Below, piece after piece: positions 4,513 to 23,675 of a stretch of 64,000 nt of DNA (positions within the stretch are counted from its first letter, which is position 1; every line of letters begins with the position of its first letter). Both the position numbers and the translations under genes were made by a program. Source of the stretch: Neobacillus thermocopriae (GTDB taxonomy: Bacteria > Bacillota > Bacilli > Bacillales > Cytobacillaceae); contig NZ_JAAIUV010000016.1 of the NCBI RefSeq assembly GCF_010975035.1, positions 1-64,000 of the forward strand, given 5' to 3'. The notes under the pieces were generated by a model. That model was given only the letters and a program-made list of their open reading frames with translations. It did not search any database and was not told where the DNA came from.

Positions 4513-4515
4513 CCT

Positions 4516-5238: not shown

Positions 5239-5358
5239 CCCAAATCATTCCTTCCCGCTCGTCCCTGTTCAATAAACTATATGGGACAAGGAAAATTTTT
5301 AGAACAGAAAGAAATGAATGAGGAGATAGACAATTATCTCATGTCAACCTTATTTTAG

Positions 5359-5802
5359 TTAATGAAGACGAAGCTTGTATCGTCGATAGCCTTTTTCATA
5401 TCCTTCTCTCCACCAAACTTGAACATATTGTTCACAAAGATAATACAAGGATTCACTCATAACCCCTTCCTCCCCATTGCCCCAATATAATAAAAAATTG
5501 AATAACGTATCCACTAAATGCTTTTCTTCTTTATAACAGCGCATACGAACGGACTCTATATCTTCCCCATAATAGCCAAATTTGCTAAACTTTGCCCCTA
5601 ACAAATAAGCTTCAAGGGCAACATCATAACAAGCTTCTTCCATTCCTGTATTGATAATGAAAGCGGAAGAGATTCTTGTTGAACCAAAATACTGTTTTAC
5701 CCGTTCTTTCAATGTCTGGATTGATAAATCCCGTAGAACAGATCGTTCGTATTTAATTTGCTTTTCACGTCTTTTCTCTTTAAAGGTTGTTATCACAGTC
5801 AC
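5359..5802 (-). CDS. ybaK: YbaK family protein (DUF2521)
   Basis: A 147-aa soluble protein of unknown function, typical of the YbaK family next to cwlD in Bacillus. The N-terminus is basic (FKEKRREKQIKYERSVLRDL) and the C-terminal part is rich in aromatic residues (YLCEQYVQVWWREGYEKGYR). No signal peptide or catalytic motif is visible. The start is GTG at 5802 behind AGAGGTGA. In B. subtilis ybaJ and then rpsI precede it; here an accessory block of about 16 kb takes that place. Confidence 0.88.
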   Translation of the reverse strand: MTVITTFKEKRREKQIKYERSVLRDLSIQTLKERVKQYFGSTRISSAFIINTGMEEACYDVALEAYLLGAKFSKFGYYGEDIESVRMRCYKEEKHLVDTLFNFLLYWGNGEEGVMSESLYYLCEQYVQVWWREGYEKGYRRYKLRLH

Positions 5803-5956
5803 TTTCTTTCACCTCTTAGGACTATTCTTTATCCCCCATTGATAAGAAATACAAAGACCAAATGGTTTTCAATTGCCAATTTTTATCCCCTACTATTTCT
5901 TTCAATGAAAAAAACATAATTATTCCAGATTAGGTAAAGATAAAATAAAAGGTTTA

Positions 5957-7459: not shown

Positions 7460-7476
7460 TTTACGGAGGAATAAAC

Positions 7477-9629: not shown

Positions 9630-9636
9630 GAAAAAA

Positions 9637-9686
9637 GAGGCTGTATATCTGACTCCATACGAAAGTAGCCCAGATTATACAGCCTC
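9637..9686. terminator. Terminator between the ger operon and nhaC
   Basis: An 11-bp stem (GAGGCTGTATA at 9637-9647, TATACAGCCTC at 9676-9686). On the minus strand it is followed by six T residues, so it ends nhaC transcription; it may also slow plus-strand transcription of the ger operon. A second 10-bp inverted repeat (9690-9699 and 9723-9732) lies between it and the nhaC stop. Confidence 0.8.
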
Positions 9687-9737
9687 AGAAGAAATCATGA
9701 TCCTAAATGCATAGAAGATTGACATGATTTCTGATGA

Positions 9738-11162
9738 TTAGTAACTCCTACGCATAGGAATATGTTTGGAATGAGGTTTTGTCGAAGTTTTAGGAAGTGT
9801 TATACCTGTAAACCCAAAAATGACGGTAATTAACGGTGAAACTAAGCAAAAGAATGCATATGGTGCAAATTCAACCACTGAGACCCCAAGAACTGTAGCT
9901 AGAAATACACCACAGACACTCCATGGTACAAGGGGATTAACCACTGTTCCCGCATCCTCAAGAACCCTTGAAAGATGCTTTGGTTTCAAACCAGCCTTTT
10001 TAAAATGCTCCTTAAAAGTATTACCAGGTAACAAAATAGAAAGGTACTGTTCCCCCAAAATGAAATTAACCGCAATGGCCATACTAGCTGTTGAGCAAAT
10101 TAACACCGAAACTCGAGATAACAAATTTTGCACAACCGATAGTAACGATGGAATAATGCCAAGCCTAAAGAGAAGCCCTCCCATACTAAGTGCAAGTAAA
10201 ATGACTGATATGCTAAACATCATACTTTCCATGCCGCCCCTTGATAGCATAGAGTCAATTTCCTTAATGCCAGTTTCCGATTTATAACCGGAATAAAGCA
10301 GCTCCAACACACTATTTACATCTACTCCACTATTGATCCACAAGGAAAGGATAAGGGCAGATAAGGTTCCGGCAGACAAAGTAGCTATTGCTGGCACTTT
10401 TTTGAGAGCCAGGACAGCAAGAATGACTATTGGAATGAGTGAGTACCAGTGAACAAGATTCAAATTTTGTAATCCTTCTTTTACGATGGCCACTTGATGG
10501 ATACTTTGATCCGTATTATCCGGAGAAAGAATTAAATATAGAATAAATGAAAGAATAAACGCTGGAATGGTCGTCCAAGCCATATTTTTTATATGCTCAA
10601 ATAAATCTGCACCCGCTACACTCGATGCAAGATTCGTTGTATCTGATAATGGCGACATCTTATCTCCAAAAAAGGCTCCTGATACCACTGCCCCGGCTGT
10701 AATGACTGGAGATATATCTAGTGCACTGCTTGCACTGACGAAAGCAACACCTAATGTTGCTGCCGTAGTAAGGGAACTACCAATACTTAACCCGATAATG
10801 GCCGTTACCGTAAAAACAATGGCATAGTAAAATTTCCCCGATACTAACTCAACCGCTAAATAGATAAATGTCGGAATAGTCCCGCTTGCCATCCAGCTAC
10901 TGATGAGCATTCCTATAAAAAAGAAAATCATGACAGCATTAATCCCCGACTTGGCACCTTCCGCCATCGCACCTTCTAACTCTTTAAAGCTTACTCTTTT
11001 AACTGTTCCATATAATAGTAGAAGTACAATCCCAGCCATAATAGCAATATGTGGAATTACTTTCATGCTAATGATTAAGTATCCAATCATCCCGATTAAT
11101 AGAGCCGTTATACATGCTGCTTCAATCGGGTGAATGTTTAGTACCTTTTGTGATTGAATCAT
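9738..11162 (-). CDS. nhaC: NhaC-family antiporter, T-box controlled (possible tyrosine transporter)
   Basis: A 474-aa polytopic membrane protein of the NhaC family, with about eleven hydrophobic segments and the conserved stretch AGAVVSGAFFGDKMSPLSDT (about residue 158). The family includes Na+/H+ antiporters, MleN (malate/lactate) and predicted amino-acid transporters. AAGGGGGGA precedes the ATG. Upstream on the same strand is a T-box leader whose specifier reads UAC, so expression should rise when tRNA-Tyr is uncharged. A housekeeping sodium antiporter would not need this; I infer transport of tyrosine or a related compound. NhaC relatives controlled by Tyr T-boxes have been predicted as tyrosine transporters (TyrT). 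The family is sure, the substrate is not. Confidence 0.85.
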   Translation of the reverse strand: MIQSQKVLNIHPIEAACITALLIGMIGYLIISMKVIPHIAIMAGIVLLLLYGTVKRVSFKELEGAMAEGAKSGINAVMIFFFIGMLISSWMASGTIPTFIYLAVELVSGKFYYAIVFTVTAIIGLSIGSSLTTAATLGVAFVSASSALDISPVITAGAVVSGAFFGDKMSPLSDTTNLASSVAGADLFEHIKNMAWTTIPAFILSFILYLILSPDNTDQSIHQVAIVKEGLQNLNLVHWYSLIPIVILAVLALKKVPAIATLSAGTLSALILSLWINSGVDVNSVLELLYSGYKSETGIKEIDSMLSRGGMESMMFSISVILLALSMGGLLFRLGIIPSLLSVVQNLLSRVSVLICSTASMAIAVNFILGEQYLSILLPGNTFKEHFKKAGLKPKHLSRVLEDAGTVVNPLVPWSVCGVFLATVLGVSVVEFAPYAFFCLVSPLITVIFGFTGITLPKTSTKPHSKHIPMRRSY

Positions 11163-11183
11163 TCTTTTCCCCCCTTAATATAG

Positions 11184-11344
11184 AAAAGCGAAAGCCCCCT
11201 GCTTAGCGGCATATGACATGGAGGGCTCCAACTGAGATAAAGATTCAAGAAGAACCGAAGGCGATTCGATGTTGACTTATCGTAGGGCGAAGACCAAAGG
11301 GCATTAACCGCTAGAGGGCTGGAGCATAAGCTAAGGCTTTCGTT
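11184..11344. repeat. Intergenic repeat copy 2, imperfect palindrome
   Basis: It begins AAAAGCGAAAGCCCCCTG and TTAGCGGCATATGAC and has CTCCAACTGAGATAAA, the same boxes as the copy at 1468. Its ends are complementary: CGAAAGCC (11189-11196) with GGCTTTCG (11335-11342), and TAGCGG (11204-11209) with CCGCTA (11308-11313), so the transcript can fold into one long hairpin. It sits between the T-box terminator and the nhaC ribosome binding site, which suggests insertion of a small non-autonomous element. No coding capacity is apparent. Confidence 0.65.
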
Positions 11345-11404
11345 CAAAAGAAGCCATTCTTACGCTGGTCATTCTCAAACTAAAAATTTACATTCGTAAA
11401 TCAC

Positions 11405-11643
11405 AAAAAAACCCTTCGTCGTTAGGGACGAAAGGTTTTCCGCGGTACCACCCTAATTGGCAAGAATAACTCCCTGCCCTCTTTCAAAACATACCCGTTT
11501 AACACAGCTGTATTTCAATAATGCCATCGCCCGGATTCTCAGCATCCATCCGGTCTCTATTAGCTGCTAATGACATTTTTACTTTTACTGTAGGTATCTA
11601 TTCACTTTTTTACTAAAACGCTTTTAAGCGTTAAAGCGTGTGT
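11405..11643 (-). promoter_or_regulatory. T-box riboswitch, tyrosine specifier (UAC), upstream of nhaC
   Basis: On the minus strand all T-box parts are visible. The T-box sequence AGGGTGGTACCGCGG is at 11440-11454. A terminator follows (stem 11410-11420 with 11427-11437, then a run of T). Stem I has an AGUA loop-E strand and, on the other side, GAAA followed by TAC (11510-11512). In the cysE T-box of this window GAAA is directly followed by TGC (Cys), which supports reading UAC (Tyr) here. The bulge reads UGGU, complementary to an ACCA tRNA end, as expected for tRNA-Tyr with discriminator A. The controlled gene is the NhaC-family transporter. Confidence 0.93.
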
Positions 11644-11649
11644 GTATTA

Positions 11650-11678
11650 ATTATACATGATTACTGTTTGTTAGTCAA
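11650..11678 (-). promoter_or_regulatory. Promoter of the nhaC T-box leader
   Basis: On the minus strand -35 TTGACT (11673-11678) and a perfect -10 TATAAT (11650-11655) have 17-base spacing. The predicted RNA start near 11643 directly precedes T-box stem I. Confidence 0.9.
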
Positions 11679-11764
11679 AAATTTTTTTAGAATATGTAGG
11701 GAAGAAATATAGATTGATACAAAATTAAAACTACAATGATTGTTACTCTTATCCTATAAAAATA

Positions 11765-11789
11765 GCTCTTTCCCCAAAGGGAAAAGAGC
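11765..11789 (-). terminator. Terminator after the bacteriocin exporter operon
   Basis: Stem GCTCTTTTCCC (complement of 11779-11789) with GGGGAAAGAGC (complement of 11765-11775), one bulge, followed on the minus strand by ATTTTTAT. It lies 112 bases downstream of the permease stop. Confidence 0.75.
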
Positions 11790-11901
11790 CCTGAAACATA
11801 TCCTAATTATTATTTCAACAACTGGGGTGCACGACAAATGACTTTGCAACTGACTTGTAACCAAATGTTTAAAAAACAAATTTACGAATTTCATATTTAG
11901 C

Positions 11902-13101
11902 CTATTCATATCTTAACGCATCAATTGGTTCCATTTTTGCGGCTTTATTGGCTGGCATGATTCCAAAAATAATTCCGAGAATAATGGAGAACAAAATTGC
12001 GCCAATAATAACCTCAATCGAAACAAGTGGTGGCCATTTCGCAATAAAGGAAACGAAATATGCACCTGCAGCACCAAAGGTAATTCCAATCGTTCCTCCA
12101 AAAAGAGTAAGCATCATGGACTCAATTAAAAATTGAAGTAAAATATTACCCCGTGTAGCTCCAAGTGCTTTCCGAATACCTATTTCTCTCGTTCTTTCCG
12201 TTACGGAAACAAGCATGATATTCATAACCCCTACTCCGCCAACCAGTAAGGAAATACTCGCTATCCCACCAATAATCATAGTCATGATTTTCGTAATCCC
12301 CGCCATACTCTTTTGTAGTTCTTCAAGGTTCAAAACCTCATACTTTCCTTCCAACTCTGGTGATTTGGCATCGTTTAACATTTTAGCTGCTTTGGTACCA
12401 GCAAGTTCAAGTTGGCTAATATCTTTCACTTGTAAAGTAACGCTTTGAATATCATCCGTCCCATATAATACAGGCCATAGGGTTAACGGCATAATTATTT
12501 CTGGAGTGCTTAATCCAAACAGTCCACCTGCCGATTTATAAACACCGATCACTTCAAAAGGCTGTCCTTTAATTTCAAGAATCTGACCAATGACTTTACT
12601 ATCTTTAAATAATTCCTGTGCTGCCCCGTCATTGATCATAATTACATTATTTGATTGAGAAAAATCAGCCTCATTCAGCTTTCTTCCCCTTTTCATTTCA
12701 ATAGAATTTACAGCAAAAAATTCATCGGTCACACCCAAAACTTGTGTACTTATCGATTGTTCATTTACCATTAACATCTCCATTGAACTATTTGTCGTTA
12801 TGACATGTTTAACCTCAGGAATTTTTCTTAGTTGGAAAATGTTATCCTCTGTAAAAACAGGAAGCTCATCGGTTATCATTGCAAACGGATCGTCTGAATC
12901 GGGAATGAAGTTAATTTCAATGGTATTATTACCTGAAGCAGCAAATTGAGATTTTAACGCTGCCTCGCCTCCTTGACCTATGGCCACTATGGTAACAATA
13001 CTCCCTACTCCAATAATGATTCCTAACATCGTTAAGGCTGATCGTAATTTATGGGCAAGAATCGATGAGAGAGCAAATTTTATACTTTCCATCCAACTCA
13101 T
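11902..13101 (-). CDS. MacB-like ABC transporter permease (As-48H-like)
   Basis: A 399-aa permease of the MacB/FtsX type: one N-terminal membrane segment (TMLGIIIGVGSIVTIVAIG), a large extracytoplasmic MacB_PCD-type domain (residues about 45-260) and three C-terminal membrane segments with the family motif VTERTREIGIRKALGA near 308. It works with the ATPase encoded upstream (four-base overlap ATGA) and the adaptor before it. In AS-48 clusters a second transporter (F, G, H) of this type exports or protects against the peptide. Given the divergent AS-48-like genes next door, that role is inferred; the alternative is a general YknXYZ-like exporter. Confidence 0.88.
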   Translation of the reverse strand: MSWMESIKFALSSILAHKLRSALTMLGIIIGVGSIVTIVAIGQGGEAALKSQFAASGNNTIEINFIPDSDDPFAMITDELPVFTEDNIFQLRKIPEVKHVITTNSSMEMLMVNEQSISTQVLGVTDEFFAVNSIEMKRGRKLNEADFSQSNNVIMINDGAAQELFKDSKVIGQILEIKGQPFEVIGVYKSAGGLFGLSTPEIIMPLTLWPVLYGTDDIQSVTLQVKDISQLELAGTKAAKMLNDAKSPELEGKYEVLNLEELQKSMAGITKIMTMIIGGIASISLLVGGVGVMNIMLVSVTERTREIGIRKALGATRGNILLQFLIESMMLTLFGGTIGITFGAAGAYFVSFIAKWPPLVSIEVIIGAILFSIILGIIFGIMPANKAAKMEPIDALRYE

Positions 13102-13781
13102 GTGAATACCCTCTTCATATCAGAAGTTATTCTACCGTCTCTGAGTAAAATGCAGCGTGGGGTGTAAGCCGCCACCTCTTCCTCATGTGTTACCATAATA
13201 ATGGTTGTACCTTCCTTATTCAGCTGAGTAAAAATATTCATGATTTGCTCTCCTGACTTTGAATCAAGTGCCCCAGTCGGTTCATCCGCTAAAATAAATG
13301 ATGGATTTGTTGCAATAGCTCGGGCGATTGCAACACGTTGCTTTTGTCCACCTGAAAGTTGATTAGGTAAATGATCCATTCTATCTGCAAGCCCTACTTT
13401 AGCCAATACTTCCTGCGCACGTTTCCGCCTTTCTTTTTTACTAATACCCCCATAGATGAGTGGCAATTCCACATTCTCCAATGCGTTCAATCTAGGAAGT
13501 AAATGAAAATGTTGAAATACAAATCCAATGAATTGATTACGTATCATCGATAGCTTTTTTTCGTTAGATTCTAATATATTGAATCCATTTAATACATACT
13601 CCCCTGATGTAGGTCGATCAATACATCCTATAATATTCATTAATGTTGATTTGCCAGACCCAGATGGGCCCATAATCGAAACAAATTCGCCCCTATTAAT
13701 CTCAATATTAATATCGTGAAGTACTGGAACATCAAGGTCCCCTTGAATGTACGACTTAAAAATATTCTTTAGACTTATCAT
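13098..13781 (-). CDS. MacB-type ABC transporter ATPase (As-48G-like)
   Basis: A 227-aa ATP-binding subunit with Walker [10 protein letters not shown] (residues about 39-47), Q-loop [12 protein letters not shown], signature LSGGQKQR and Walker [13 protein letters not shown]. This is the LolD/MacB subfamily that powers mechanotransmission permeases. It starts three bases after the adaptor stop and overlaps the permease start by four bases, so the three proteins form one operon on the minus strand. Proposed partner of the AS-48-like peptide cluster. Confidence 0.92.
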
Positions 13782-13784
13782 TCC

Positions 13785-14984
13785 TTAATTCACTTCCATT
13801 CCGTCGGATAACTGATCGGATGGATTTTTGACTACTTTGTCACCAACTTTTAGGCCTGTAAGGATTTCAGTCCATTTACCATCTTCTATTCCGGTTGTTA
13901 CTTGTTGTTTTCGTAGTTTATTCTCATCTAAGACATAGACAAACTGAGAATCCCCATCCTCTTTAATACAACTACGAGGAATGGACATTCTAGTCTTTGC
14001 CGATTGAATCACTTGTATCGTTACATGATAACCAGGTGACAATCCTTCCTGGGAATCCAGCACCCCTTTAAAATTATAGTAAGAAATATTTTGTGATCCA
14101 TCTGCACCAACAGCACTTTGAACTAGTTCTTGTGCTAGTGGATATTCACTGACTTCTATAATTTTCCCCGTCCAAGTTTTATCTGCAACAGCCTTCGAAG
14201 TAACTTTTATAGGCTGATTCGGTAGTATTTGTGCCTTTTGTAATTCGCTTAATTGTCCTTGTATTTGATACGGCTCTTTTGAAACAATTTGCACGATCGG
14301 GTTACCTTGTCCCTCCATAGTGCTAGAAAGACTTTGTTTATCATCTTTCGCCACTTTCTGAACAATACCTGCAGTATTGCTGTAAACAATTAAATTATTT
14401 TGTTTCTTATGTAACTGTTCTTCTTGTAATTTGAATTTTTCTTTTTCCAACTCCATGCTTTCCTTCTCAAACTCTAAGTCTTTTAATTGTGCTTCTAAAT
14501 TCTTAGTTGTTTCTTTAAGTTGCGCATTAAGCTCAGCATTTTGGTTGTTTTTTTCAGCTTCCTTTGCTTTTTTTATCTCTTTTCTTAAAGAGTTCATTTT
14601 TTCATTTACTTGTTCATAGCGCATTTGACTTGTTTTCTTGTCAATCTCTAACTGCTTCATTTCAAAAGATAGTTCCGAATCATCATAAGAAAAAAGTTTT
14701 TGACCCTTCGTGATTTCCTGCCCTTCTTGAACAAAAATCTCCACTACTTTCCCTTTTGTTGGGTCTGGATAAATAGTTTCAATAGCTCCTGGAACCACTT
14801 TTCCAGCGATTAACTTCGTGGTATTCATCTCTTTTTCTATCACACTGACAAAACTTAATTCATTAGCTTTAGCTGGCTTTTTTTGTAATAACACGATATT
14901 CAGAGCAGCCACTATGACGATAATTGTGATTATCCCAAAGATAATCCACTTCTTCCTTGATGTCGTTTGGTATTTTACCTCCAT
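13785..14984 (-). CDS. HlyD/MacA-like adaptor subunit (As-48F-like)
   Basis: A 399-aa membrane-fusion-type adaptor of Gram-positive exporters. One N-terminal membrane segment (residues about 13-32), a biotinyl-lipoyl half (KGKVVEIFVQEGQEITKGQKL), a long Lys/Glu/Gln coiled coil (about 100-200), the second lipoyl half (IVYSNTAGIVQKV) and a beta-barrel. It resembles YknX of B. subtilis and the F protein of AS-48 clusters. First gene of the F-G-H operon, with a promoter at 15055-15084. AAGGGG precedes the ATG. Confidence 0.87.
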   Translation of the reverse strand: MEVKYQTTSRKKWIIFGIITIIVIVAALNIVLLQKKPAKANELSFVSVIEKEMNTTKLIAGKVVPGAIETIYPDPTKGKVVEIFVQEGQEITKGQKLFSYDDSELSFEMKQLEIDKKTSQMRYEQVNEKMNSLRKEIKKAKEAEKNNQNAELNAQLKETTKNLEAQLKDLEFEKESMELEKEKFKLQEEQLHKKQNNLIVYSNTAGIVQKVAKDDKQSLSSTMEGQGNPIVQIVSKEPYQIQGQLSELQKAQILPNQPIKVTSKAVADKTWTGKIIEVSEYPLAQELVQSAVGADGSQNISYYNFKGVLDSQEGLSPGYHVTIQVIQSAKTRMSIPRSCIKEDGDSQFVYVLDENKLRKQQVTTGIEDGKWTEILTGLKVGDKVVKNPSDQLSDGMEVN

Positions 14985-15033
14985 ACACGTTATCCCCTTT
15001 GTTTAAAGTACTCAAGTTTTATAATCACAAAAA

Positions 15034-15084
15034 ATTACAATAATTTACAATATTATAATATTATTACAAAAATATTACTGTCAA
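15034..15084 (-). promoter_or_regulatory. Promoter of the exporter operon with repeated TTGTAAT boxes
   Basis: On the minus strand -35 TTGACA (15079-15084) and -10 TATTAT (15055-15060) are 18 bases apart. On the plus strand four similar heptamers lie in and around it: ATTACAA (15034), TTTACAA (15044), ATTACAA (15063) and ATTACTG (15074). Their starts are 10, 19 and 11 bases apart, about one or two helical turns, so a protein could bind them on one face. Boxes downstream of and inside the promoter suggest repression. The regulator is unknown. Confidence 0.55.
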
Positions 15085-15350
15085 TAAATCCAATTAAATT
15101 AAAATATTAGGTACAAATACAAAAAGTGGAATAATGAGGATATTTAAAACATCAATAGGCATTTTGAATGAAATAAGATAGTTTTAAATTACTATTGTAA
15201 AAAGACAAGTTTGAGAAAATTGGGTAAAAATGATTATTTTGTAATTTTTTGTATAATTCTGTATTGGAAAATTTTTTTTGCTTGTTATTATTTAACTATC
15301 GGCAGCCAAAAAAAGGAAAAAATTCTGATGCTTGAAAGGAGGTGAATATG
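15085..15350. other. AT-rich divergent intergenic region before the bacteriocin gene
   Basis: About 270 bases without a gene. A perfect plus-strand -10 (TATAAT at 15252-15257) lies 93 bases before the bacteriocin start, but no good -35 is seen at the right distance (best AATGAT at 15229). It may be an activator-dependent promoter. TTGTAA-like words occur here too. The bacteriocin ribosome binding site AAAGGAGGTG is at 15335-15344. Confidence 0.5.
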
Positions 15351-15668
15351 ATGGCAAACCGTCTAAATGTAATTAAGGTTCCTGTATTACTTACAGCAAC
15401 TGCAATTATTATGCTTGGTTACTTTGCTTTATTAGGAACCCTTCCAATCGCTGATCTTGCGAAAGAATTTGGCGTACCTTCCGCAGTAGGAAGTGTTGTT
15501 GCTTGGTACTTAGATCTGGGTGCTGCTGCAAGTATCATTATTGGATTACTTACAGGTTTCCTTTCCGGTGGATTAGGGCTAATTGCCGCAGCGGGAAGAG
15601 AGACTTTAAAGGCCTTCCTATTAGCTGAATTAAGAAATAGAGGTACTAAAGCCTTTGTAGCTTGGTAA
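15351..15668 (+). CDS. Circular bacteriocin precursor, enterocin AS-48-like
   Basis: The precursor of a head-to-tail cyclised antimicrobial peptide. From the ATG at 15351 (GGAGG eight bases upstream; an ATG at 15348 is also possible) it is 105 aa. Cleavage after LPIAD would leave a 35-aa hydrophobic leader and a core of exactly 70 aa running from LAKEFGVPSAV to KAFVAW. AS-48, as I recall it, also has a 35-aa leader ending LPIAH and a 70-aa core from MAKEFGIPAAV to RAVIAW. The two cores align without gaps, sharing SGGL, AAAGRE and the C-terminal Trp. The ends would be joined Leu1 to Trp70. The core is less basic than AS-48 in its C-terminal helix (LAELRNRGTK). B, C, C1, D and D1 homologues follow directly. 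Confidence 0.93.
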   Translation: MANRLNVIKVPVLLTATAIIMLGYFALLGTLPIADLAKEFGVPSAVGSVVAWYLDLGAAASIIIGLLTGFLSGGLGLIAAAGRETLKAFLLAELRNRGTKAFVAW

Positions 15669-15737
15669 AAAAGTTTGAAGGTGAAATGACATTCATTTCA
15701 CCTTCTACTATGTAAATCTTCAAATCGGAGTGTTTTT

Positions 15738-17489
15738 ATGTTTCCACATATGATTCCCCTCTTACAATTATTTTTAACAATGAGATTAGAAAAAGATTTT
15801 TCTGCCATTGTCAAAAAAATTCCATACATTAAAAGAATCAGTTTGATCCTAATAATTAAAAATCTAATTTTTACATTTCTTTCTATTGTGGCAGTTTATT
15901 TTTTCTATCATAAATATCTTTTTTATATGGTTGAATATCGCGATATCATTGTCCTTTTTATTCTATTATTATTGTTATTTATTTCATTACTAAACGGGGT
16001 ATTGGCTTATAAAAGAACACATTTTCCCATTTACGGAGACCTTTTATCTCTTTCACCATTAAATAATAAAGAGATCTTTTTCCTGCTAATAGCGGAAGAG
16101 ATGATCTGGCTTATTTTTCAAAATGTTGGGTTTCTACTATCCATACTGATCTTCCTTTATTGGTTAATGTCCATATCTATTTTTTCTTTTCTTTTATTTT
16201 CTATTGTCATCATTTTATCAATGGCCTTCATGTTTACACTCGGAAATATCTGTTGGGGCCGCTATCAAATTTATAAGATTCAAAAGAAAATTGGTTTTAT
16301 TCGTTTTATGATTTATCTACTCAATGCTTGTTTATTTATGTCTTTTGGATTTTTGATTAGTCATACATTGGCCTTTATCATTAAAACTTTTAGAGCCCAT
16401 TTCCATTATTTTGATCAACTTATGAACGATCAGTTTTATGAATCACTCTTAGGCATATTTAAAAATGAGTTTATTTTATTTATCTTCCAACTTATTAACA
16501 AGATATATCAATTCTCTATTTATACGTTTATCACATCATTTATCAAATCAGAAAATGTCTTTTCTTATATATTGGGAATCGTTATAATCATATTTTTGCT
16601 TTACTTATTAAAGTACTTTACACCTATATATGGGGATAACCAATTCATAAAAAAATCATTATTTCATCATGATTATTTATATATTTATACGAAAATCGTT
16701 AACAAAGTGTTTAATAGAAATCACAATGCCATCTTTCATAAGGAACTGATTATCCTTAATAAGAGTCGATGGATTATTTCACCTGGGGTTTTTTCCATCA
16801 TTTTTTATACCTTTGAATCTTTCTTTTATTTAGGAGTATTACTCGGAATTGGAGTAAACATGACCAATGATCCAATGTTTATTGCACTACTGCTACTTTT
16901 CAATGCAATGATTATGATCATGCACTGTTATGATATTGTTAGTGAATTCCCTCAGATCTTTTTCTTAAGTTCTGAAGGAAAGAATATTGAATTTATTCGT
17001 TCCTCACCCATAGGTATTCAACAATTATTCGAAGCAAAAATAAGATTGCTTCATGCCGTATTGACGATTCCTATGGTCATTAGTTTTTCATTTTCTTGTT
17101 TTCTTTTACTGTATACCAAAAATTTTAATTTACTTACTATCATTCTCTTAATCAGTATTTTATTGATCATGTATTTCATTTCACCGATGATTCAACTATA
17201 TATGGCACCCTATTATGCCAAATTTAATTTTGATGATATTCAAGAAGTGGGCAGTACATATGAAGAAAAGGAATTACATATTCGTTCTCAAAGTGTCCCG
17301 AGGTATATTATCTTAATCCCTGCATTGATTTTTAGTTTTTTAAATATTTTCTTTCCTTTTTATCAATACATTCCTTTTATTCATATCATATACTTTGTAG
17401 CTATTTTTTTACCTGCACTCATTTATCTAATTGTATCCAAAAAGATAATTAACAAAGGTTTGTACAAGCTGGAAAGGAGAATATTTTGA
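15738..17489 (+). CDS. Large membrane protein of the circular bacteriocin cluster (As-48B-like)
   Basis: A 583-aa, very hydrophobic protein with roughly a dozen membrane segments and no enzymatic motif I can name. Position (first gene after the precursor), length and hydrophobicity match As-48B, a membrane protein needed for maturation and secretion of the circular peptide. CGGAGTG precedes the ATG. It overlaps the next gene by four bases. Its composition is strongly AT-rich, like the rest of the cluster. Assignment is by context and architecture rather than by a motif. Confidence 0.83.
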   Translation: MFPHMIPLLQLFLTMRLEKDFSAIVKKIPYIKRISLILIIKNLIFTFLSIVAVYFFYHKYLFYMVEYRDIIVLFILLLLLFISLLNGVLAYKRTHFPIYGDLLSLSPLNNKEIFFLLIAEEMIWLIFQNVGFLLSILIFLYWLMSISIFSFLLFSIVIILSMAFMFTLGNICWGRYQIYKIQKKIGFIRFMIYLLNACLFMSFGFLISHTLAFIIKTFRAHFHYFDQLMNDQFYESLLGIFKNEFILFIFQLINKIYQFSIYTFITSFIKSENVFSYILGIVIIIFLLYLLKYFTPIYGDNQFIKKSLFHHDYLYIYTKIVNKVFNRNHNAIFHKELIILNKSRWIISPGVFSIIFYTFESFFYLGVLLGIGVNMTNDPMFIALLLLFNAMIMIMHCYDIVSEFPQIFFLSSEGKNIEFIRSSPIGIQQLFEAKIRLLHAVLTIPMVISFSFSCFLLLYTKNFNLLTIILLISILLIMYFISPMIQLYMAPYYAKFNFDDIQEVGSTYEEKELHIRSQSVPRYIILIPALIFSFLNIFFPFYQYIPFIHIIYFVAIFLPALIYLIVSKKIINKGLYKLERRIF

Positions 17490-18013
17490 AACTTGTTACT
17501 CGATTAATGAAAAGCTGGGGACATTTATATGTTTTATTCTTTCTCATATTTCTTTTAGGAGTTGTTTCGGGCGTATTTTTTCACCCTGAAGATAACCATC
17601 ATTTTCAACCTGTTAGCGCAAATTACATGGATATTTTTATCAATAATCTTAAGGTAGGATTGCTATTAATATTTGGTGGACTAATGTCTGGCGGGGTTAT
17701 TCCGATCCTTGTGATCGGATCGAATGGATACATTATTGGTCATGTTATTCATATTGCTCTTACTGAACATACGATTACTCTATTATTTACTGGATTATTA
17801 CCACATATGTTTGTTGAGCTGGTTGCCTTGATATCATGTGCGGTAGTCGGTAGCTTTTCTGGAAGTTTCATGTTCAATTATTTTCGTAATAAAGTGCCAA
17901 AAAATTTTTTTCGATTGACTTTATCTGATGGGCTAACTCTATTCTTTATTGCTTTCTTTTTATTATTTTTAGCAAGTTTAATAGAGGATTTCATAAGTCA
18001 TGTAAAACTTTAG
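17486..18013 (+). CDS. SpoIIM/DUF95-family membrane protein (As-48C-like)
   Basis: A 175-aa protein with about four to five membrane segments. The stretch GLLPHMFVELVALISCA is the hallmark of the SpoIIM/DUF95 family. Circular bacteriocin clusters (AS-48, circularin, uberolysin, carnocyclin types) nearly always hold such a gene, with an assumed role in maturation, secretion or immunity. It overlaps the B gene by four bases. It should not be read as the sporulation protein SpoIIM. Confidence 0.87.
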   Translation: MKLVTRLMKSWGHLYVLFFLIFLLGVVSGVFFHPEDNHHFQPVSANYMDIFINNLKVGLLLIFGGLMSGGVIPILVIGSNGYIIGHVIHIALTEHTITLLFTGLLPHMFVELVALISCAVVGSFSGSFMFNYFRNKVPKNFFRLTLSDGLTLFFIAFFLLFLASLIEDFISHVKL

Positions 18014-18025
18014 GAGGGAATGAAA

Positions 18026-18577
18026 ATGAACTTGTGGTTAAATCCAACCAACTTTTTTTCACAGGATAAAGAGGCTATTACGAATAGAAGTATCATATTA
18101 AAAAATATTATGATCCTTATTGTTGGTATGTTCTTTGTTACATGCATTCTGTATCAACTGATTCCAGATGTAAATAATAGTAATTTGTTTTTAACTTTTG
18201 CGTTTATTACTGCTCTATCAGTCCCATTCTATCTAATATTTAATTTTTTTCTTTCCCTGGTTTATTTATTAGTATTAATCTTTTTTCACCCTTCCTTAAA
18301 GATTAGTAAATTTTATACACTAATATTAACGTATAATACTTTAAATTTTCTTTTTAGTTCCATTGGTGTAAACTTACTCTTTTATTACGAGAATACTTTA
18401 ACACAAATATTCATTATTTGTATTTCCCTTCTTATTAACATATGGAGCCTTCGCATATTATTTGCCGGGCTTATAAATTTTATCGGTTTTTCAAAGAAAG
18501 TAAGTATAGTTTTTTGCACAACACTTTTTTTATTAAATTTACTCATATTAATAGGAGGAAATTTCCTAAATGTCTAG
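18026..18577 (+). CDS. Membrane protein of the bacteriocin cluster (As-48C1-like)
   Basis: A 183-aa protein with about five membrane segments (from residue 25 on) and a short soluble start MNLWLNPTNFFSQ, reminiscent of Yip1-type membrane proteins. The ATG at 18026 is chosen because AGGAGGG lies eight bases upstream; the ATG at 18020 would be only two bases away. It overlaps the ATPase gene by eight bases and so probably forms the membrane part of the C1-D transporter. The match to As-48C1 rests on order and type. Confidence 0.78.
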   Translation: MNLWLNPTNFFSQDKEAITNRSIILKNIMILIVGMFFVTCILYQLIPDVNNSNLFLTFAFITALSVPFYLIFNFFLSLVYLLVLIFFHPSLKISKFYTLILTYNTLNFLFSSIGVNLLFYYENTLTQIFIICISLLINIWSLRILFAGLINFIGFSKKVSIVFCTTLFLLNLLILIGGNFLNV

Positions 18578-19268
18578 TAATACCATATTAAGGCTAGAAA
18601 ATATTTCATTCGGATATTCTAAAGAAGAAAATATTCTTAAGAACATTCATTTTAAATTTAATGCTGGGGAAATTAGTGTAATAAAAGGGAATAATGGTGC
18701 TGGTAAATCTACCTTGCTAAAAGTATTATCCGGGTTAGTGGAATTTGATGGTGAGCTTTTTCTAAAAGAAGAGAAAGTTTTCGATTTAAAGGAATATAAA
18801 AAAAGGATTGCTTACATTCCAGATTCTCCTTTATTATATAACATTCTAACTGGGCGAGAGAATTTAAAGTTAATAGAAAATTTATGGTTAGTCAAAGATC
18901 ATTCGGGCTATTGGGATCGTATTTACATATGGGCTGAGAAACTCCATATGATAGATGCACTTGATAAACCAGTGGACGAATATTCACTTGGTATGCGTAA
19001 TAAACTTTTTTTTATCGGAAATTTGGCTAGGAATCCAGAAATTGTTTTCCTCGATGAACCTTTTTCTTCATGGGACCAGGAATCCTTGAAAAACGTGATC
19101 CTTATGCTTAAAGAATATGTTACCGTTTCGGAACGTGCAATCATTATGGTTACACATTCAGAAAGTCTAATTCATCATCTTGGAGACAAAGTTATTCTAC
19201 TAAAAAATAATACGTTAAATAAATCTAAACCATTTATTCCACTAAAAAAAGAAAGGTCGATTCAGTAA
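18570..19268 (+). CDS. ABC transporter ATPase of the bacteriocin cluster (As-48D-like)
   Basis: A 232-aa ATP-binding subunit: Walker A GNNGAGKST (residues about 39-47), a degenerate signature YSLGMRNK in place of LSGGQ, Walker B IVFLDEPFSSWD and the switch His in VTHSES. In AS-48 the D ATPase works with the C1 membrane protein for secretion and self-protection. GGAGG precedes the ATG. It overlaps C1 by eight bases and the immunity gene by one base (TAATG). Confidence 0.92.
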   Translation: MSSNTILRLENISFGYSKEENILKNIHFKFNAGEISVIKGNNGAGKSTLLKVLSGLVEFDGELFLKEEKVFDLKEYKKRIAYIPDSPLLYNILTGRENLKLIENLWLVKDHSGYWDRIYIWAEKLHMIDALDKPVDEYSLGMRNKLFFIGNLARNPEIVFLDEPFSSWDQESLKNVILMLKEYVTVSERAIIMVTHSESLIHHLGDKVILLKNNTLNKSKPFIPLKKERSIQ

Positions 19269-19435
19269 TGAAATACTTTTATGGAATTTTGTTAGTACTA
19301 TGTGTCATCTCCATTGTTTCTCTATGCTTGTTAGGAATAAATGATCTTAACATCGGGAAAATCCTGATAGTAGTTTGTTCCGCTTTTGCTGCTACAAGTA
19401 TTATGAAGCTAGTAAGTTTAAATAAAAATCATTAA
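19268..19435 (+). CDS. Small hydrophobic immunity protein candidate (As-48D1-like)
   Basis: A 55-aa protein, MKYFYGILLVLC... to ...LVSLNKNH, with two membrane segments (about 4-23 and 31-47) around a short polar turn (GINDLNIGK) and a basic C-terminus. Its start overlaps the ATPase stop by one base (TAATG), indicating translational coupling. As-48D1, the main AS-48 immunity protein, is about 56 aa, hydrophobic and cationic, and in the same position, so the same role is inferred. Confidence 0.8.
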   Translation: MKYFYGILLVLCVISIVSLCLLGINDLNIGKILIVVCSAFAATSIMKLVSLNKNH

Positions 19436-19451
19436 ATTGAGGTGAAATAGG

Positions 19452-19637
19452 ATGAGTTCTGCTTTATGTCCAAAGTGCGGAAAAGATGTTGTCAATAAGT
19501 TACATTTAGTACCCGTTCATCTCCAAAATAAAGACCAGGTGGTTCAATTATTAACATGTGGATCCTGTCATACCATTATTGGAATATATGACGCTGAAAC
19601 AGCAAAAACAGTAGATCGTATCTTCTTAAAGCTATAA
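19452..19637 (+). CDS. Small zinc-ribbon protein of unknown function
   Basis: A 61-aa soluble protein with two CxxC pairs (CPKCG at 6-10 and CGSCH at 36-40), the pattern of a zinc ribbon. GAGGTGAAATAGG precedes the ATG. It lies 16 bases after the immunity gene and before the terminator, so it is the last gene of the bacteriocin operon. I do not know of it in AS-48 clusters. It could be a regulator, an assembly factor or an unrelated gene. Confidence 0.75.
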   Translation: MSSALCPKCGKDVVNKLHLVPVHLQNKDQVVQLLTCGSCHTIIGIYDAETAKTVDRIFLKL

Positions 19638-19690
19638 CAAGCACCAAATACTCTCTATCTCGTTGTAGACAGAGAGTATTAATGCTTGTT
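19636..19690 (+). terminator. Terminator of the bacteriocin operon
   Basis: A long two-part stem: AACAAGCA (19636-19643) with TGCTTGTT (19683-19690) enclosing AATACTCTCT (19647-19656) with AGAGAGTATT (19671-19680), followed by TTATTTT. It starts at the stop codon of the zinc-ribbon gene. Confidence 0.88.
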
Positions 19691-20054
19691 TTATTTTCCA
19701 CCTATCCTTCTGTAAATTTAGTAATACAATAAGCTTATCTTTCTAAAACGAATAATAAAACTAAAAAACAAATATTCATCCAATGAAAGAGTATGAAAAA
19801 ACATACGAAGAGTTTAAGCAAGTGAAAAGGTGTTTTGTGATTTCAAAATTAAACTAATTGTTTTTAAGAGAGAAATGAAATAGCTTCTATTAAAATCCGA
19901 AGAAATTAAAGCCTAATACTTCGATTTTCATTCAGAGACATTAGGCTTCTTGCTCTAGTAGATCGGTTCTTAAGTGCAATACTTCATCCTTAACGATCAT
20001 ATTACTGAGTTTTTTTTCGATATTCAATCATTGCGCCCAATTTATGAAAAATGT
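19691..20054. other. Intergenic region without a recognised gene
   Basis: About 360 AT-rich bases between the bacteriocin terminator and the HAAS gene stop. The only structure I see is a 9-bp inverted repeat, AAGCCTAAT (19909-19917) with ATTAGGCTT (19940-19948). No ORF with a ribosome binding site, RNA gene or known repeat was recognised. Confidence 0.5.
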
Positions 20055-20807
20055 TTATTTATTTGCTATTTTATTCAATACCCAAAGGTATATAGAAAAC
20101 CCAGCAAAGGTTATCAATGTGCTAATAATTAGTTGTGTTTCATGTTTTAATGGTGTAAAGCTCAATACATATTTTGGTACTATCAACAATACTAAAGAAA
20201 TAATGAAAATCCACGTTTTTGACCAAATAGACATGCCAATGATAAAGAATGTTGTAATAACCCCTATAATCACGCTTGCTGTATTGCCAAAATGAATAAT
20301 AGGAGTATGAATGGTTTGATTTAAGTAAATTAAACCAATAAACAAGAAAAGAGGCAGTGACATTATTATAAATAATTTAATACCTTGAATTTTTGAAGAT
20401 TGATTTGTTGTGGAAATATATTTAAATCCAGCAAAGATCAAAGTAATAAATATGGTTCCAATGATAATATATCCAACAATCTCTAACACAGAATAGGAAA
20501 GGTTCCCTTCTAATAAATCAGAGAAGATTGTAAAAGAAAATGATCCAAAAATAATTAGACAAATGTATTGAATCCAACTTCGAAAGTCAATGCTCATTTC
20601 CTTAGAAACCATCTCCATATATTCTTTCGGTGATTTTCCAATAATTTTATCAATGGGCTTCCCATTTTTTTCTGCTTCTAATAAATGAACTTTCAATTCT
20701 TCCACAACTTCTTCTATTTCATCTGAGTTTTTCCCACAAGAAAATAAATAGAGGCGTAAATTCTCTAAAAATGCTTTACTTTCATTTGAGAGTTTTAAGT
20801 CATTCAA
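20055..20807 (-). CDS. HAAS-domain membrane protein, PadR partner
   Basis: The N-terminal 80 residues (FLENLRLYLFSCGKNSDEIEE, then ELKVHLLEAEKNGKPIDKII) are a HAAS-type domain, common in proteins encoded after PadR regulators. Six membrane segments follow. A TTG start at 20807 fits the GGAG nine bases upstream and gives 250 aa; the ATG at 20816 sits directly on that site and is less likely. The gene overlaps the padR end. The pair probably forms a sensing or envelope-stress unit; its signal is unknown. Confidence 0.78.
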   Translation of the reverse strand: MNDLKLSNESKAFLENLRLYLFSCGKNSDEIEEVVEELKVHLLEAEKNGKPIDKIIGKSPKEYMEMVSKEMSIDFRSWIQYICLIIFGSFSFTIFSDLLEGNLSYSVLEIVGYIIIGTIFITLIFAGFKYISTTNQSSKIQGIKLFIIMSLPLFLFIGLIYLNQTIHTPIIHFGNTASVIIGVITTFFIIGMSIWSKTWIFIISLVLLIVPKYVLSFTPLKHETQLIISTLITFAGFSIYLWVLNKIANK

Positions 20808-21159
20808 CCGTCCCATCTCCTTTTAATAAATTTGTGTTGGATTCATTGTTCAAAACCCTATTTACATTGTTTTGTAAGTACCTCCATCGCTCAATAAACA
20901 ATTCTAATTCTGCTTCACCTTTTGGTGTAAGCGAGTAATATTTTCTTTTAGGCCCAGCAGTTGATTTTTTCAATGTTGAAGTAACCAATTCTTCCTTTTG
21001 CATCCTCATTAACAATGGATAAATCGTCCCCTCGCTAAAGGAATGAAATCCATAGCTTTCAAGCTTTTCAGCCAGCTCATATCCATATACTTCTTTATTT
21101 TTAATAATAGCTAGCAAACACCCTTCAATAATTCCTTTTAGCATCTGTGTTGTCGACAA
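20800..21159 (-). CDS. PadR family transcriptional regulator
   Basis: A 119-aa winged-helix repressor: LKGIIEGCLLAIIKNKEVYG, YELAEKLE, SEGTIYPLLMRMQKEELV and the wing TAGPKRKYYSLTPKGE are classic PadR elements. The start is TTG at 21159, eight bases after GGGGTG; the in-frame TTG at 21165 is too close. Upstream are a 13-bp palindrome and a 17-bp inverted repeat that look like its operators. PadR members often respond to antimicrobials or phenolics. It could regulate itself and perhaps the adjacent bacteriocin cluster. Confidence 0.9.
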   Translation of the reverse strand: MSTTQMLKGIIEGCLLAIIKNKEVYGYELAEKLESYGFHSFSEGTIYPLLMRMQKEELVTSTLKKSTAGPKRKYYSLTPKGEAELELFIERWRYLQNNVNRVLNNESNTNLLKGDGTVE

Positions 21160-21184
21160 GTCCAATTCACCCCGCTTCCAATAA

Positions 21185-21277
21185 CTTGTAATACAAGGGT
21201 TATACCATTACATATATCTTGCATTACATGGTATATAAATCATATTAACAATTTTTTCCTTGTAATGCAAGATATAT
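21185..21277. promoter_or_regulatory. Operator-like inverted repeats upstream of padR
   Basis: A perfect 17-bp inverted repeat, ATATATCTTGCATTACA (21212-21228) and TGTAATGCAAGATATAT (21261-21277), with a 32-base spacer, plus a separate 13-bp palindrome CTTGTAATACAAG (21185-21197) near the padR start. All three share the half-site CTTGYA. This spacing would suit looping by a PadR dimer pair. A clear promoter is not obvious; TTGCAT-17-TAATAT on the minus strand is the best candidate. Confidence 0.65.
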
Positions 21278-21280
21278 TAG

Positions 21281-21477
21281 CCTTAGGAATTCCTCTAATG
21301 GGATAAAAACAAATCCTTCATAGAATGACTATATATACGATATGCATCCCATGCATTTGAAGCAGGAATGAGCATAAAAGGAGTATAGAGTGGTTAGATC
21401 ACTCAGACATTCACACAACCATGAACATCTATCCATACGTTTCTGATACATAAAATGAGACAACACTAGAAGTTCAA
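21281..21477. other. Intergenic region without a recognised gene
   Basis: About 200 bases between the padR operator and the dnaA fragment. I see short ORFs without ribosome binding sites and no known repeat. It may be further debris of the rearrangement that left the dnaA and dnaN pieces. Confidence 0.45.
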
Positions 21478-21567
21478 GAAGGTTTAGATATTCCAAACGA
21501 AGTGATGCTTAATATTGCTAATCAAATTGATTCCAACATTCGTGAACTTGAAGGAGCTCTTATCCGT
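21478..21567 (+). pseudogene. dnaA: dnaA fragment (30 codons, domain III)
   Basis: The plus strand encodes [18 protein letters not shown] followed by [12 protein letters not shown]. This matches, nearly residue for residue, the B. subtilis DnaA region just after sensor-II ([18 protein letters not shown]...). The match stops abruptly at 21567, where DnaA would continue VVAYSSL. No start, ribosome binding site or remaining gene is present, so this is a non-functional fragment. It abuts an inverted dnaN piece. Confidence 0.88.
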
Positions 21568-21572
21568 GAACC

Positions 21573-21707
21573 TTGTACTTCAATTTCTACTGTATCAGTA
21601 GGAAGCTTCTTTACAATTTTACTAAAAAATTTTGCTTGGATAACAATTGATCCAATCTCTTTAATTTCAACAATTTCATTGCCTTCTTCTTCTTTGGGAA
21701 TATATTT
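21573..21707 (-). pseudogene. dnaN: dnaN fragment (about 45 codons), inverted
   Basis: The minus strand encodes [19 protein letters not shown], then [17 protein letters not shown], then TDTVEIEVQ. This corresponds to residues about 55-100 of the DNA polymerase III sliding clamp of Bacillus (FIPKEEGDKEIVTIEQPGS...). Both ends stop mid-gene. It points towards the dnaA fragment, whereas intact dnaA and dnaN are consecutive on the same strand, so the junction at 21568-21572 is rearranged. Confidence 0.85.
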
Positions 21708-21756
21708 AATGCATGAATAATGTAGATGACCATAAGTAAAAATTGTGGATTTTCAA

Positions 21757-21795
21757 GCAAAAAAAGACCCCCAACCAATATTGGTTGAGAGTCTT
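21757..21795 (-). terminator. Terminator after rpsI
   Basis: On the minus strand AAGACTCTCAACCAA pairs, with a few G-U pairs, with TTGGTTGGGGGTCTT around the palindromic centre CAACCAATATTGGTTG (21772-21787), followed by seven T. It closes the rplM-rpsI operon. Confidence 0.92.
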
Positions 21796-21809
21796 GAAAC
21801 GTGAATATA

Positions 21810-22202
21810 TTAACGTTTTGAGAATTGTGGCGCGCGACGAGCACCTTTAAGACCGTATTTTTTACGTTCTTTCATACGTGCATCGCGAGTTAATAGACCA
21901 GCACGTTTTAATGTTGGACGATATTCTGGATCAGCTTGAAGCAGTGCACGAGCAATACCATGACGGATTGCACCAGCTTGGCCAGTGTAGCCACCACCGC
22001 TTACGTTTACTAGAACATCATAGCTACCAACAGTTTCAGTTGCTACTAATGGTTGTCTTACAACAACACGTAAAGCTTCAAATGGGATATAGTCGTTAAT
22101 GTCACGATTGTTAATTACAATTTTACCTGTACCTGGAACTAAGCGCACACGTGCGACAGAGCTCTTACGACGGCCAGTACCGATATATTGAACTTGTGCC
22201 AA
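21810..22202 (-). CDS. rpsI: 30S ribosomal protein S9 (uS9)
   Basis: S9 lies in the 30S head; its extended C-terminal tail ends in Lys-Arg (RRAPQFSKR) and reaches the P-site tRNA anticodon. The TTG at 22202 with GGAGG eight bases upstream gives 130 aa starting [15 protein letters not shown], identical in length to B. subtilis; the in-frame ATG at 22223 overlaps the rplM stop and is not the start. Second gene of the rplM-rpsI operon. Confidence 0.97.
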
Positions 22203-22222
22203 GTTAATTTCCTCCCTCTTCA

Positions 22223-22660
22223 TTAACCGCGAAGTTCGTAAACTTCAGGTTTTTGTGCTTGGTGCGGATGCTCTGCGCCAGCATAAACATGTAATTTTTT
22301 GAACATTTTACGTCCTAGAGAATTCTTTGGAAGCATGCCTTTAACAGCAAGCTCAAGCATTTTCTCTGGATAGTTTGTACGCATTTCAAGAGCAGTTCTT
22401 TGTTTTAAACCGCCTGGATGTAAGCTGTGACGATAGTAGATTTTGTCATTTAACTTGTTACCAGTTAATTGAATTTTAGATGCATTAAGAATAATGACAT
22501 GATCACCAGTATCAACATGTGGTGTATAAGTTGGTTTGTGTTTACCGCGTAAAATTGATGCTACTTCAGAAGCAAGACGTCCAAGAGTCTTCCCCTCAGC
22601 ATCAACTACGTACCATTTGCGCTCGATATTGTTGGCATTTGCCATAAACGTTGTACGCAT
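22223..22660 (-). CDS. rplM: 50S ribosomal protein L13 (uL13)
   Basis: An early 50S assembly protein. The product is 145 aa, as in B. subtilis, with [18 protein letters not shown] near the start and the [21 protein letters not shown] signature. GGAGGGA precedes the ATG. It leads the operon with rpsI and has a long structured leader (22661-22844), probably feedback-controlled by L13. Confidence 0.97.
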
Positions 22661-22844
22661 GAGTTTCCCTCCTAATTAAATCCATAAAAAATATTTATTT
22701 GCGCACGGTCACGAGCATATTAGTGTCCGATTCTGTTCCGGGAATGAACATTAAAGCCGAGCGTGCAATTAATTTTGTTAATCATATATTTTCAATCACG
22801 ATGAAGACTTTCCGGGGCTTATCGTGGGATTAAAAACACACACA
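22661..22844 (-). promoter_or_regulatory. Probable L13 ribosomal leader RNA
   Basis: The 184-nt untranslated leader of rplM is unusually long and structured. A hairpin (CACGAT, 18-nt loop, ATCGTG) encloses AAGCCCCGGAAAG, and a second long-range stem pairs TTGCACG with CGTGCGCAA around a variable loop. Leaders of rplM in Firmicutes are a known protein-binding class (L13 leader). I assign it by position and structure, without a covariance search. Confidence 0.55.
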
Positions 22845-22850
22845 TATAAT

Positions 22851-22879
22851 ATAATAAATAATTGGTATCTAATTGTCAA
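22851..22879 (-). promoter_or_regulatory. Promoter of rplM-rpsI
   Basis: On the minus strand a perfect -35 TTGACA (22874-22879) and -10 TATTAT (22851-22856) are 17 bases apart. Transcription would start near 22844. It sits 53 bases after the truA stop. Confidence 0.85.
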
Positions 22880-22931
22880 GAAAATGTTACACCAGGATAG
22901 GTTGTTTTATGAAATCAGTTGATGAGTGCTT

Positions 22932-23675
22932 TTAATAATACACTTTCCAAAGATATAATCCATGAGCCGGTGCGGTTTTGCCAGCCAATCGTCGGTCTTT
23001 CGCCTCCAAAATTTTTGGAATATCAGCAGGCTCCAAACGACCAGTACCTACTTCTAATAACGTCCCTACTAGAATGCGAACCATATTATAAAGAAAACCA
23101 TTCCCAACAAAACGCAGTATTAACATATTTCTATCTTCCAACCATTCAATGGAAATGGTTTGAATGGTTCGAACCTTGTCCTCGACGTCTGTGTTTGACG
23201 CACAAAAACTTGTAAAATCATGCGTGCCAAGAAAGAATTGACTTGCTTCCTTCATTGCTTGCAAATTCAATGAGTAGGGATACTGAACCGCAAAATTCCG
23301 TTGAAACGGGTCGCGCCTGTCTGACAAATAAAGCAAATAACGATATTCTTTTCCTACCGCACTAAATCGGGCATGAAACGAATGATCTACTTTCTCCACC
23401 GAAATCACGGAGACATCCTCGGGGAGTAAAGAATTCAAGGCAATAACCCAACGATCCTCAGGGATTGCTAGAGGAGAATCAAAATGAATGACCTGTCCCT
23501 TAGCATGGACCCCTGCATCGGTCCTACCGGAAGCAGTCACCTTCACTTGGGTACCTTTATGCAATTTTGCCAAAGCGGTTTCCAATTCTAACTGAACAGT
23601 TCGCTTATTAGGCTGAACTTGATAACCGGAAAATCCTGAACCATCATAGGCTATGATTCCTTTGTATCTTTGCAT
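22932..23675 (-). CDS. truA: tRNA pseudouridine(38-40) synthase TruA
   Basis: TruA converts uridines 38, 39 and 40 of the tRNA anticodon arm to pseudouridine. The catalytic Asp is Asp53 in ASGRTDAGVHAKGQ; the C-terminal part has FLGTHDFTSFCAS and GNGFLYNMVRILVGTLLEVG. It has 247 aa, as in B. subtilis. GGAGAG precedes the ATG. It follows ecfT by 12 bases, as in Bacillus. Confidence 0.97.
   Translation of the reverse strand: MQRYKGIIAYDGSGFSGYQVQPNKRTVQLELETALAKLHKGTQVKVTASGRTDAGVHAKGQVIHFDSPLAIPEDRWVIALNSLLPEDVSVISVEKVDHSFHARFSAVGKEYRYLLYLSDRRDPFQRNFAVQYPYSLNLQAMKEASQFFLGTHDFTSFCASNTDVEDKVRTIQTISIEWLEDRNMLILRFVGNGFLYNMVRILVGTLLEVGTGRLEPADIPKILEAKDRRLAGKTAPAHGLYLWKVYY

Follow-up and report, generated by a model that had tools for sequence, protein, structure and literature searches.

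The locus described here raises two questions: whether Neobacillus thermocopriae carries the genes for a circular bacteriocin of the enterocin AS-48 kind, and which of these genes would cut, close, and export the peptide. The window, that is, the whole stretch of DNA analyzed, comprised 64,000 nucleotides (assembly GCF_010975035.1, contig NZ_JAAIUV010000016.1, positions 1 to 64,000), and a sequence-only reading had described a complete AS-48-like operon in it. In our study, the region was found to contain a precursor gene (A) followed by the genes B, C, C1, D, and D1; judged by sequence comparison, this is an intact AS-48-type cluster, a system of known kind, and it would encode a ring bacteriocin with a probability of roughly 0.8. 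The less charged peptide, an oppositely facing probable self-protection pump, and a predicted role for the membrane protein B are new.

Precursor Peptide and Its Core

The precursor starts with the ATG at 15351 (the ATG at 15348 is a possible alternative), and AGGAGG was seen by eye 5' of the start, at 15337–15342. Its layout was as claimed beforehand, with a leader ending in LPIAD and a 70-residue core running from LAKEFG to VAW within the open reading frame (ORF) 15351–15668. The core aligned to AS-48 (PDB 1e68) without a gap, and 32 of the 70 residues were identical (46%), in agreement with the earlier estimate of somewhat under half; the BLOSUM62 score of this alignment was 172, whereas 20,000 shuffles reached 28 at most. 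KEF and the C-terminal AW were kept in the alignment. The precursor matched TIGR03651 (circularin A/uberolysin family) with 37.2 bits over positions 35–105, above the curated cut-off of 30.7, and phmmer matched it to AS-48 (E 8e-15). The score against Pfam PF09221 (Bacteriocin_IId) was 22.5 (E 1.4e-4), just below the gathering score of 23.6, and the protein P0001, 98% identical to the precursor, carries a precomputed PF09221.17. The core was predicted to fold into five helices of saposin-like form (predicted local distance difference test, pLDDT, 73). Comparison of this model with known structures gave AS-48 as the best PDB match (Foldseek E 0.02), and the four PDB matches listed at E ≤ 10 were all circular bacteriocins. 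The similarity to AS-48-family profiles on which the earlier claim depended was found by TIGR03651, phmmer, and Foldseek alike.

A core motif (L/M)(A/V)KEF(G/N)(I/L), an acidic residue at position 20, and a leader motif L-x2-L-P have been printed for this family (PMC5695211). The core start LAKEFGV fitted six of the seven motif positions, the 7th being Val instead of Ile or Leu; Val7 was also present in L009, L010, P0002, and P0003. D20 was present, as were L-8, L-5, and P-4 of the leader. The core was less basic than AS-48, as had been expected, with net charges of +2 and +6, respectively; any effect of the low charge on the killing spectrum is a guess.

In the 105-residue precursor, the leader would be removed by a cut behind its residue 35, and a head-to-tail bond between Leu1 and Trp70 would likely close the core into a ring of 70 residues, which is predicted to kill Gram-positive rivals through membrane opening. 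The computed average mass was 7143.3 Da for the ring (monoisotopic, 7138.99 Da) and 7161.4 Da for the linear peptide, and the computed tryptic junction peptide of the ring was AFVAWLAK (MH+ 905.52).

Gene Order and Membrane Machinery

The cluster was compared with 13 loci, of which 11 were from named genomes, one was pPD1, and one was a Listeria innocua plasmid; L001 (the window's own locus) and L002 (a stretch of 3.3 kb) were kept outside this set. The order A-B-C-C1-D-D1 on one strand, which is that of AS-48, was as claimed beforehand. The genes were not overlapping throughout, as the sequence-only reading had it: the junctions were +69 (A/B), −4 (B/C), +6 (C/C1), −8 (C1/D), and −1 (D/D1) nucleotides. 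The cluster also ended before the proposed 19637, D1 ending at 19435 and the remainder including a CxxC ORF for 61 amino acids, outside the conserved cluster. The operon was complete with regard to A to D1, but the divergent genes F, G, and H at 11902–14984 had been omitted and as-48E was not found. The coordinates of the features are given in Table 1.

Table 1. Features of the bacteriocin cluster and its surroundings in the window.
Feature	Position	Strand	Description
A precursor	15351..15668	+	105 amino acids (35-residue leader, 70-residue core); stop codon included
B	15738..17489	+	583-residue membrane protein homologous to as-48B; predicted to be an ABC-2-type permease of two domains
C	17486..18013	+	TTG start; SpoIIM/DUF95 membrane protein, as-48C homologue; PF01944 E 4e-18
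C1	18020..18577	+	185-residue membrane protein, as-48C1 homologue; weak Yip1 likeness, PF04893 E 2e-5, below cut-off
D	18570..19268	+	ABC ATPase, as-48D homologue; PF00005 E 9e-25
D1	19268..19435	+	55-residue cationic protein with two transmembrane segments, likely immunity protein
F	13785..14984	-	HlyD/RND-type adaptor, as-48F-like; TIGR01730 93.6, cut-off 94.9; 23% to pPD1 F, E 6e-15
G	13098..13781	-	MacB-type ABC ATPase, as-48G-like; 50% to pPD1 G, E 1e-75
H	11902..13101	-	MacB/FtsX-type permease, as-48H-like; PF12704 E 4e-39, PF02687 E 5e-21; 34% to pPD1 H, E 3e-51
Hairpin 3' of precursor stop	15675..15707	+	13-bp stem, 3-nucleotide loop; no U-run on this strand; z −4.1
61-residue ORF	19452..19637	+	CxxC, zinc-ribbon-like; outside conserved cluster
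Long stem-loop	19636..19690	+	runs into U-rich stretch; likely transcript terminator; z −7.1
Extra stretch (~10 kb)	11693..21748		not seen at the corresponding site of genus mates

B, C, C1, and D would form the membrane machinery. B, C, and D were present at the corresponding place in all 13 loci; matches were weakest in two actinobacterial loci, L008 (B, E 5e-12; C, E 6e-4) and L012 (B, E 1e-4). C1, which starts at 18020 or 18026, was found by BLAST in nine of the 13 loci. With a profile made from those nine and the window, C1 of each of the remaining four scored higher than any of 500 shuffles, though for AS-48 only narrowly (13.8 vs. 12.5, a marginal result). Eight loci had a short ORF 3' of D that encodes two hydrophobic segments, and no D1-like ORF was seen in the four pumilarin-type loci or L012. 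Although the window's D1 had clear BLAST matches in L003 and L004 only, it scored 37.7 bits with a profile of eight relatives including the D1 of AS-48, a value that none of 2000 class-preserving shuffles reached (maximum 12.7). From these comparisons, D1 is likely the immunity protein. According to van Heel et al., immunity genes are missing or reversed in some AS-48-like clusters (PMC5695211). No peptidase family was matched by any of the ten proteins scanned.

Hairpin after the Precursor Gene

The hairpin after A counted 14 pairs if one mismatch was allowed. With G-T pairs and one mismatch permitted, a stem of at least 12 pairs was found 5–21 nucleotides 3' of the precursor stop in 14 of 14 loci (the window and the 13 others), whereas 27 of 228 other ORF ends in the same sequences reached 12 pairs (mechanical ORFs of at least 150 amino acids, both strands). 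The stems sorted by eye into eight unrelated sequences, and the support per locus was uneven, with z from −1.9 to −7.6 and 0 to 15 of 200 shuffles reaching the observed value. An ordinary terminator was rejected, there being no U-run on the + strand and the scan having called the element terminator-like on the − strand only; in some relatives the tail of the hairpin was T-rich, up to 6 of 8 (L010, L013). The hairpin is likely an element of mRNA processing or stabilization. For AS-48, an inverted repeat after A has been reported (PMC8306556), and as-48ABC RNA is processed into A and BC parts (PMC3942455, PMC8306556). Such an element is therefore already known from AS-48, and what is new is that it occurs throughout the group; it may help to find operons of this kind.

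A single transcript would probably run from A to the terminator-like stem downstream of D1, and the hairpin would likely give the message of the precursor a longer life than that of the machinery, which has been reported for AS-48. The 61-residue ORF is probably on this transcript, because the strong stem-loop with its U-rich tail comes after it. It had no match better than E 0.69 in the 13 loci and, among 60 genomes of the genus, was found in the window's own only; as an immunity gene it was rejected, since D1 fits that role. The promoter scan gave 21 promoters against a shuffle mean of 29.9, so no weight was placed on them, and Rfam gave no match at the gathering score in 11000–23000.

Export, Immunity, and Alternative Explanations

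The cutting, closure, and export of circular bacteriocins are an open question in print (PMC6131525, PMC8659200). The predicted fold of B appeared ABC-2-like, with the best match in its second half. Pfam and NCBIfam gave no match for the window's B, and 15 B members gave single matches of chance level only; a B profile had one match among PDB sequences, again of chance level (E 0.23), and the alignment of the two halves of B to each other was not significant. Since the model of B resembles a single chain made up of two ABC-2 permease domains, B and the ATPase D were taken as the exporter of the ring peptide, a predicted role to which we give an even chance. With B-D as the route of export, C and C1 remain candidates for the leader-cutting and ring-closing step, and C (SpoIIM) and C1 (Yip1-like) may take part in leader removal and ligation. 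The wider proposal is tentative: B of the AS-48 type would be two fused ABC-2 permeases, the ring would leave through B-D, C and C1 would be left for cutting and closing, and in the same genus a close copy of the pump and a set of SpoIIM, Yip1-like, and ATPase genes would serve an unrelated peptide of 80 amino acids, which may belong to a new class of bacteriocin. With B as the exporter, the question of cutting, closing, and export can be put to the test in a clean cluster by deleting one gene at a time. This mechanistic question is the wider value of the locus; the peptide itself is one low-charge addition to a well mined family, of interest for food preservation.

It is highly improbable that the peptide is linear, or an unrelated hydrophobic one; cyclization is not visible in sequence, but the family profile, the gapless alignment, the conservation of both joined ends, and the presence of the whole machinery speak for a ring. 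A cluster that is intact but silent, or whose product has lost its killing power through the low charge, is rather improbable: the net charge of +2, the lack of any regulator among the cluster genes in the family scan, and the finding of the cluster in no other genome of the genus in two sets searched would agree with it, whereas the six cluster ORFs were all open and of usual length, sequences like ribosome-binding sites were seen by eye 5' of A, C, C1, and D, and a net charge of +2 recurs in Halobacillus and in both of the cores from Paenibacillus. The export route is more evenly disputed. In the AS-48 literature, secretion is assigned to as-48C1D as the transporter, as-48B is counted with the biosynthetic machinery (PMC8306556), and SpoIIM has been proposed as the membrane part of the ATPase (PMC7132975), so that the exporter would be C1 with D, or C with D, and B would cut the leader and close the ring; the lack of a Pfam or NCBIfam family for B might suit an unusual enzyme. 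This assignment is possible, though we hold it for doubtful in view of the ABC-2-like fold predicted for B and of the group ii clusters, for which PMC7452424 lists an ABC-2 permease (PlcE, GaaE) together with SpoIIM and the ATPase; B would take that place.

With regard to self-protection, F, G, and H, divergent from A at a distance of 366 nucleotides, would likely clear the ring peptide from the membrane of the producer, beside D1 as the likely immunity protein. Against this, the three genes may encode a pump that the genus uses generally for peptides or drugs and that adjoins the cluster by chance, with immunity resting on D1 and C. In accordance with such a view, H homologues were found in 59 of 60 genomes of the genus (the window's own counted), a second pump set with a Yip1 gene was present in the same genome at C15 (G 64%, H 50%), and the guanine-cytosine (GC) content of F-G-H was 37%, similar to the 36% of the left flank (1–11162) and unlike the 30% of A to D1; that of 21810–64000 was 40%. 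We consider it unlikely, however, because the three genes lie inside a stretch not found in genus mates, because F, G, and H occurred together in three of the 13 cluster loci (AS-48 and two Paenibacillus), and because the closest copies, those of G029, G032, and G059 (H 71%, G 75–78%, F 51–56%), faced a different SpoIIM operon in G029 and G059; in G032 the contig ended. L012 had a G-like gene (45%), and neither F nor H was found in the stretch examined. No as-48E was found at the cluster, the best tblastn match (E 0.043) lying elsewhere in the window. According to van Heel et al., E was found in no AS-48-like cluster besides AS-48 (PMC5695211), so that it does not define the wider family.

The SpoIIM operon of these genus mates (L053:11479–15320 in G059, L054:1844–5870 in G029) encoded a peptide of 80 amino acids, SpoIIM, a Yip1-like protein, an ABC ATPase, and a membrane protein of 477 amino acids, with divergent F-G-H. 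The peptide was glycine-rich, hydrophobic, and unrelated to the AS-48-type precursor; no family matched it, its PDB matches were all of chance level (best E 0.21), and it was found in two of 200 relatives. The hairpin 3' of its gene had 14 pairs in L054, but only seven in L053. B and the 477-residue protein were not significantly similar (E 0.11; reversed control, 0.39). Possibly, this operon represents a new bacteriocin class. The presence of the pump beside an unrelated peptide agrees with the report that one pump of this kind serves several unrelated enterocins (PMC10598978).

Genomic Place and Distribution

The cluster adjoins ribosomal genes, as had been stated, but this neighborhood has no functional part: A, B, C, C1, D1, F, and H were found in none of the examined stretches around rpsI at 16 loci of the genus (L033 comprised only 4.8 kb, and L041 held one short ATPase fragment), and its importance was therefore rejected. 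The left edge of homology lay near 11640–11690 in five of these loci (L028, L029, L030, L035, L041), and at all 16 it resumed near 21750–21800. About 1.5 kb separated the NhaC-like gene from rpsI in L029 and L030, with a 235-residue ORF between them. On the left, the conserved edge is marked by a T-box leader (RF00230) at 11421–11601 on the − strand, 5' of the NhaC-like gene, which scored 77.7 bits and thus stayed under the gathering score of 93.

Among 200 relatives, the precursor was found in its own genome and one other. An alignment-based search found precursor relatives in nine of 397 genomes of the order, with no other of the genus; the match in G223 contained internal stop codons. There were no precursor matches in plasmid and phage records, and in viral contigs searched with alignment none of 98 pattern matches encoded a relative. 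No integrase or transposase was seen by eye among the ORFs of the extra stretch, and no tRNA that could serve as an insertion point was present in the window. As the stretch was not found at the genus loci examined, nor the precursor in any other genus genome searched, its acquisition in one or two modules is likely. In L048 (G481), of the same order, another AS-48-like precursor (ORF of 112 amino acids, core LAKEFGVPAWAAAW...) lay beside an ORF that by eye was transposase-like.

Elsewhere in the extra stretch, a short frame at about 21500–21600 (+ strand) may resemble DnaA and is perhaps a gene remnant at its right edge. At 20055–21165, on the − strand and thus opposite to the cluster, are what we take to be a PadR-like regulator and a membrane protein, with no relation to the cluster shown. 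The NhaC, DUF2521, PadR, Wzm, and NosY-type labels are our assumptions, in part after entry titles, and not family calls.

Comparison with Known Systems

Literature searches gave no paper on this peptide; as they were made by terms and not by sequence, unpublished status is not claimed. The nearest named relatives were Bacillus xiamenensis and B. safensis S-11 (L003, L004; precursor 57%, B 43%, C1 48–49%, D 47–48%). They contained D1 as the window does, but their cores had a net charge of +5 and Gly for Asp at position 20, and no F or H match was found within 8 kb on either side. We know of no characterized product of these clusters. The loci of the Bacillus pumilus group (L005, L006, L007, L011), which we take to be pumilarin-type, shared the 70-residue core starting with LAKEFG and the order A-B-C-C1-D, whereas the core identity was 49%, and the stretch examined showed neither a D1-like ORF nor matches to F or H. 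The pumilarin name is also given in PMC5695211.

Enterocin AS-48 (as-48ABCC1DD1EFGH; pPD1, NZ_KT290268.1, L014) shared with the window the gapless 70-residue core, P-4, a leader of 35 residues (PMC8306556), the order A-B-C-C1-D-D1, the F-G-H pump, and the inverted repeat after A. It differed in core sequence and charge, as given above, and B and C were only 28 and 30% identical, respectively. AS-48 is encoded on a plasmid and has E, whereas the cluster of the window lies beside ribosomal genes, lacks E, and has F-G-H divergent and upstream. The Mr10EFGH/as-48EFGH pump, of which the full four-part form was found in Enterococcus only, likewise has an adaptor, an ATPase, and an FtsX-type permease (PMC10598978), whereas the window lacks E and its adaptor is 23% identical to as-48F. 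A B. subtilis transporter of similar structure has been proposed to protect against the SDP toxin (PMC10598978).

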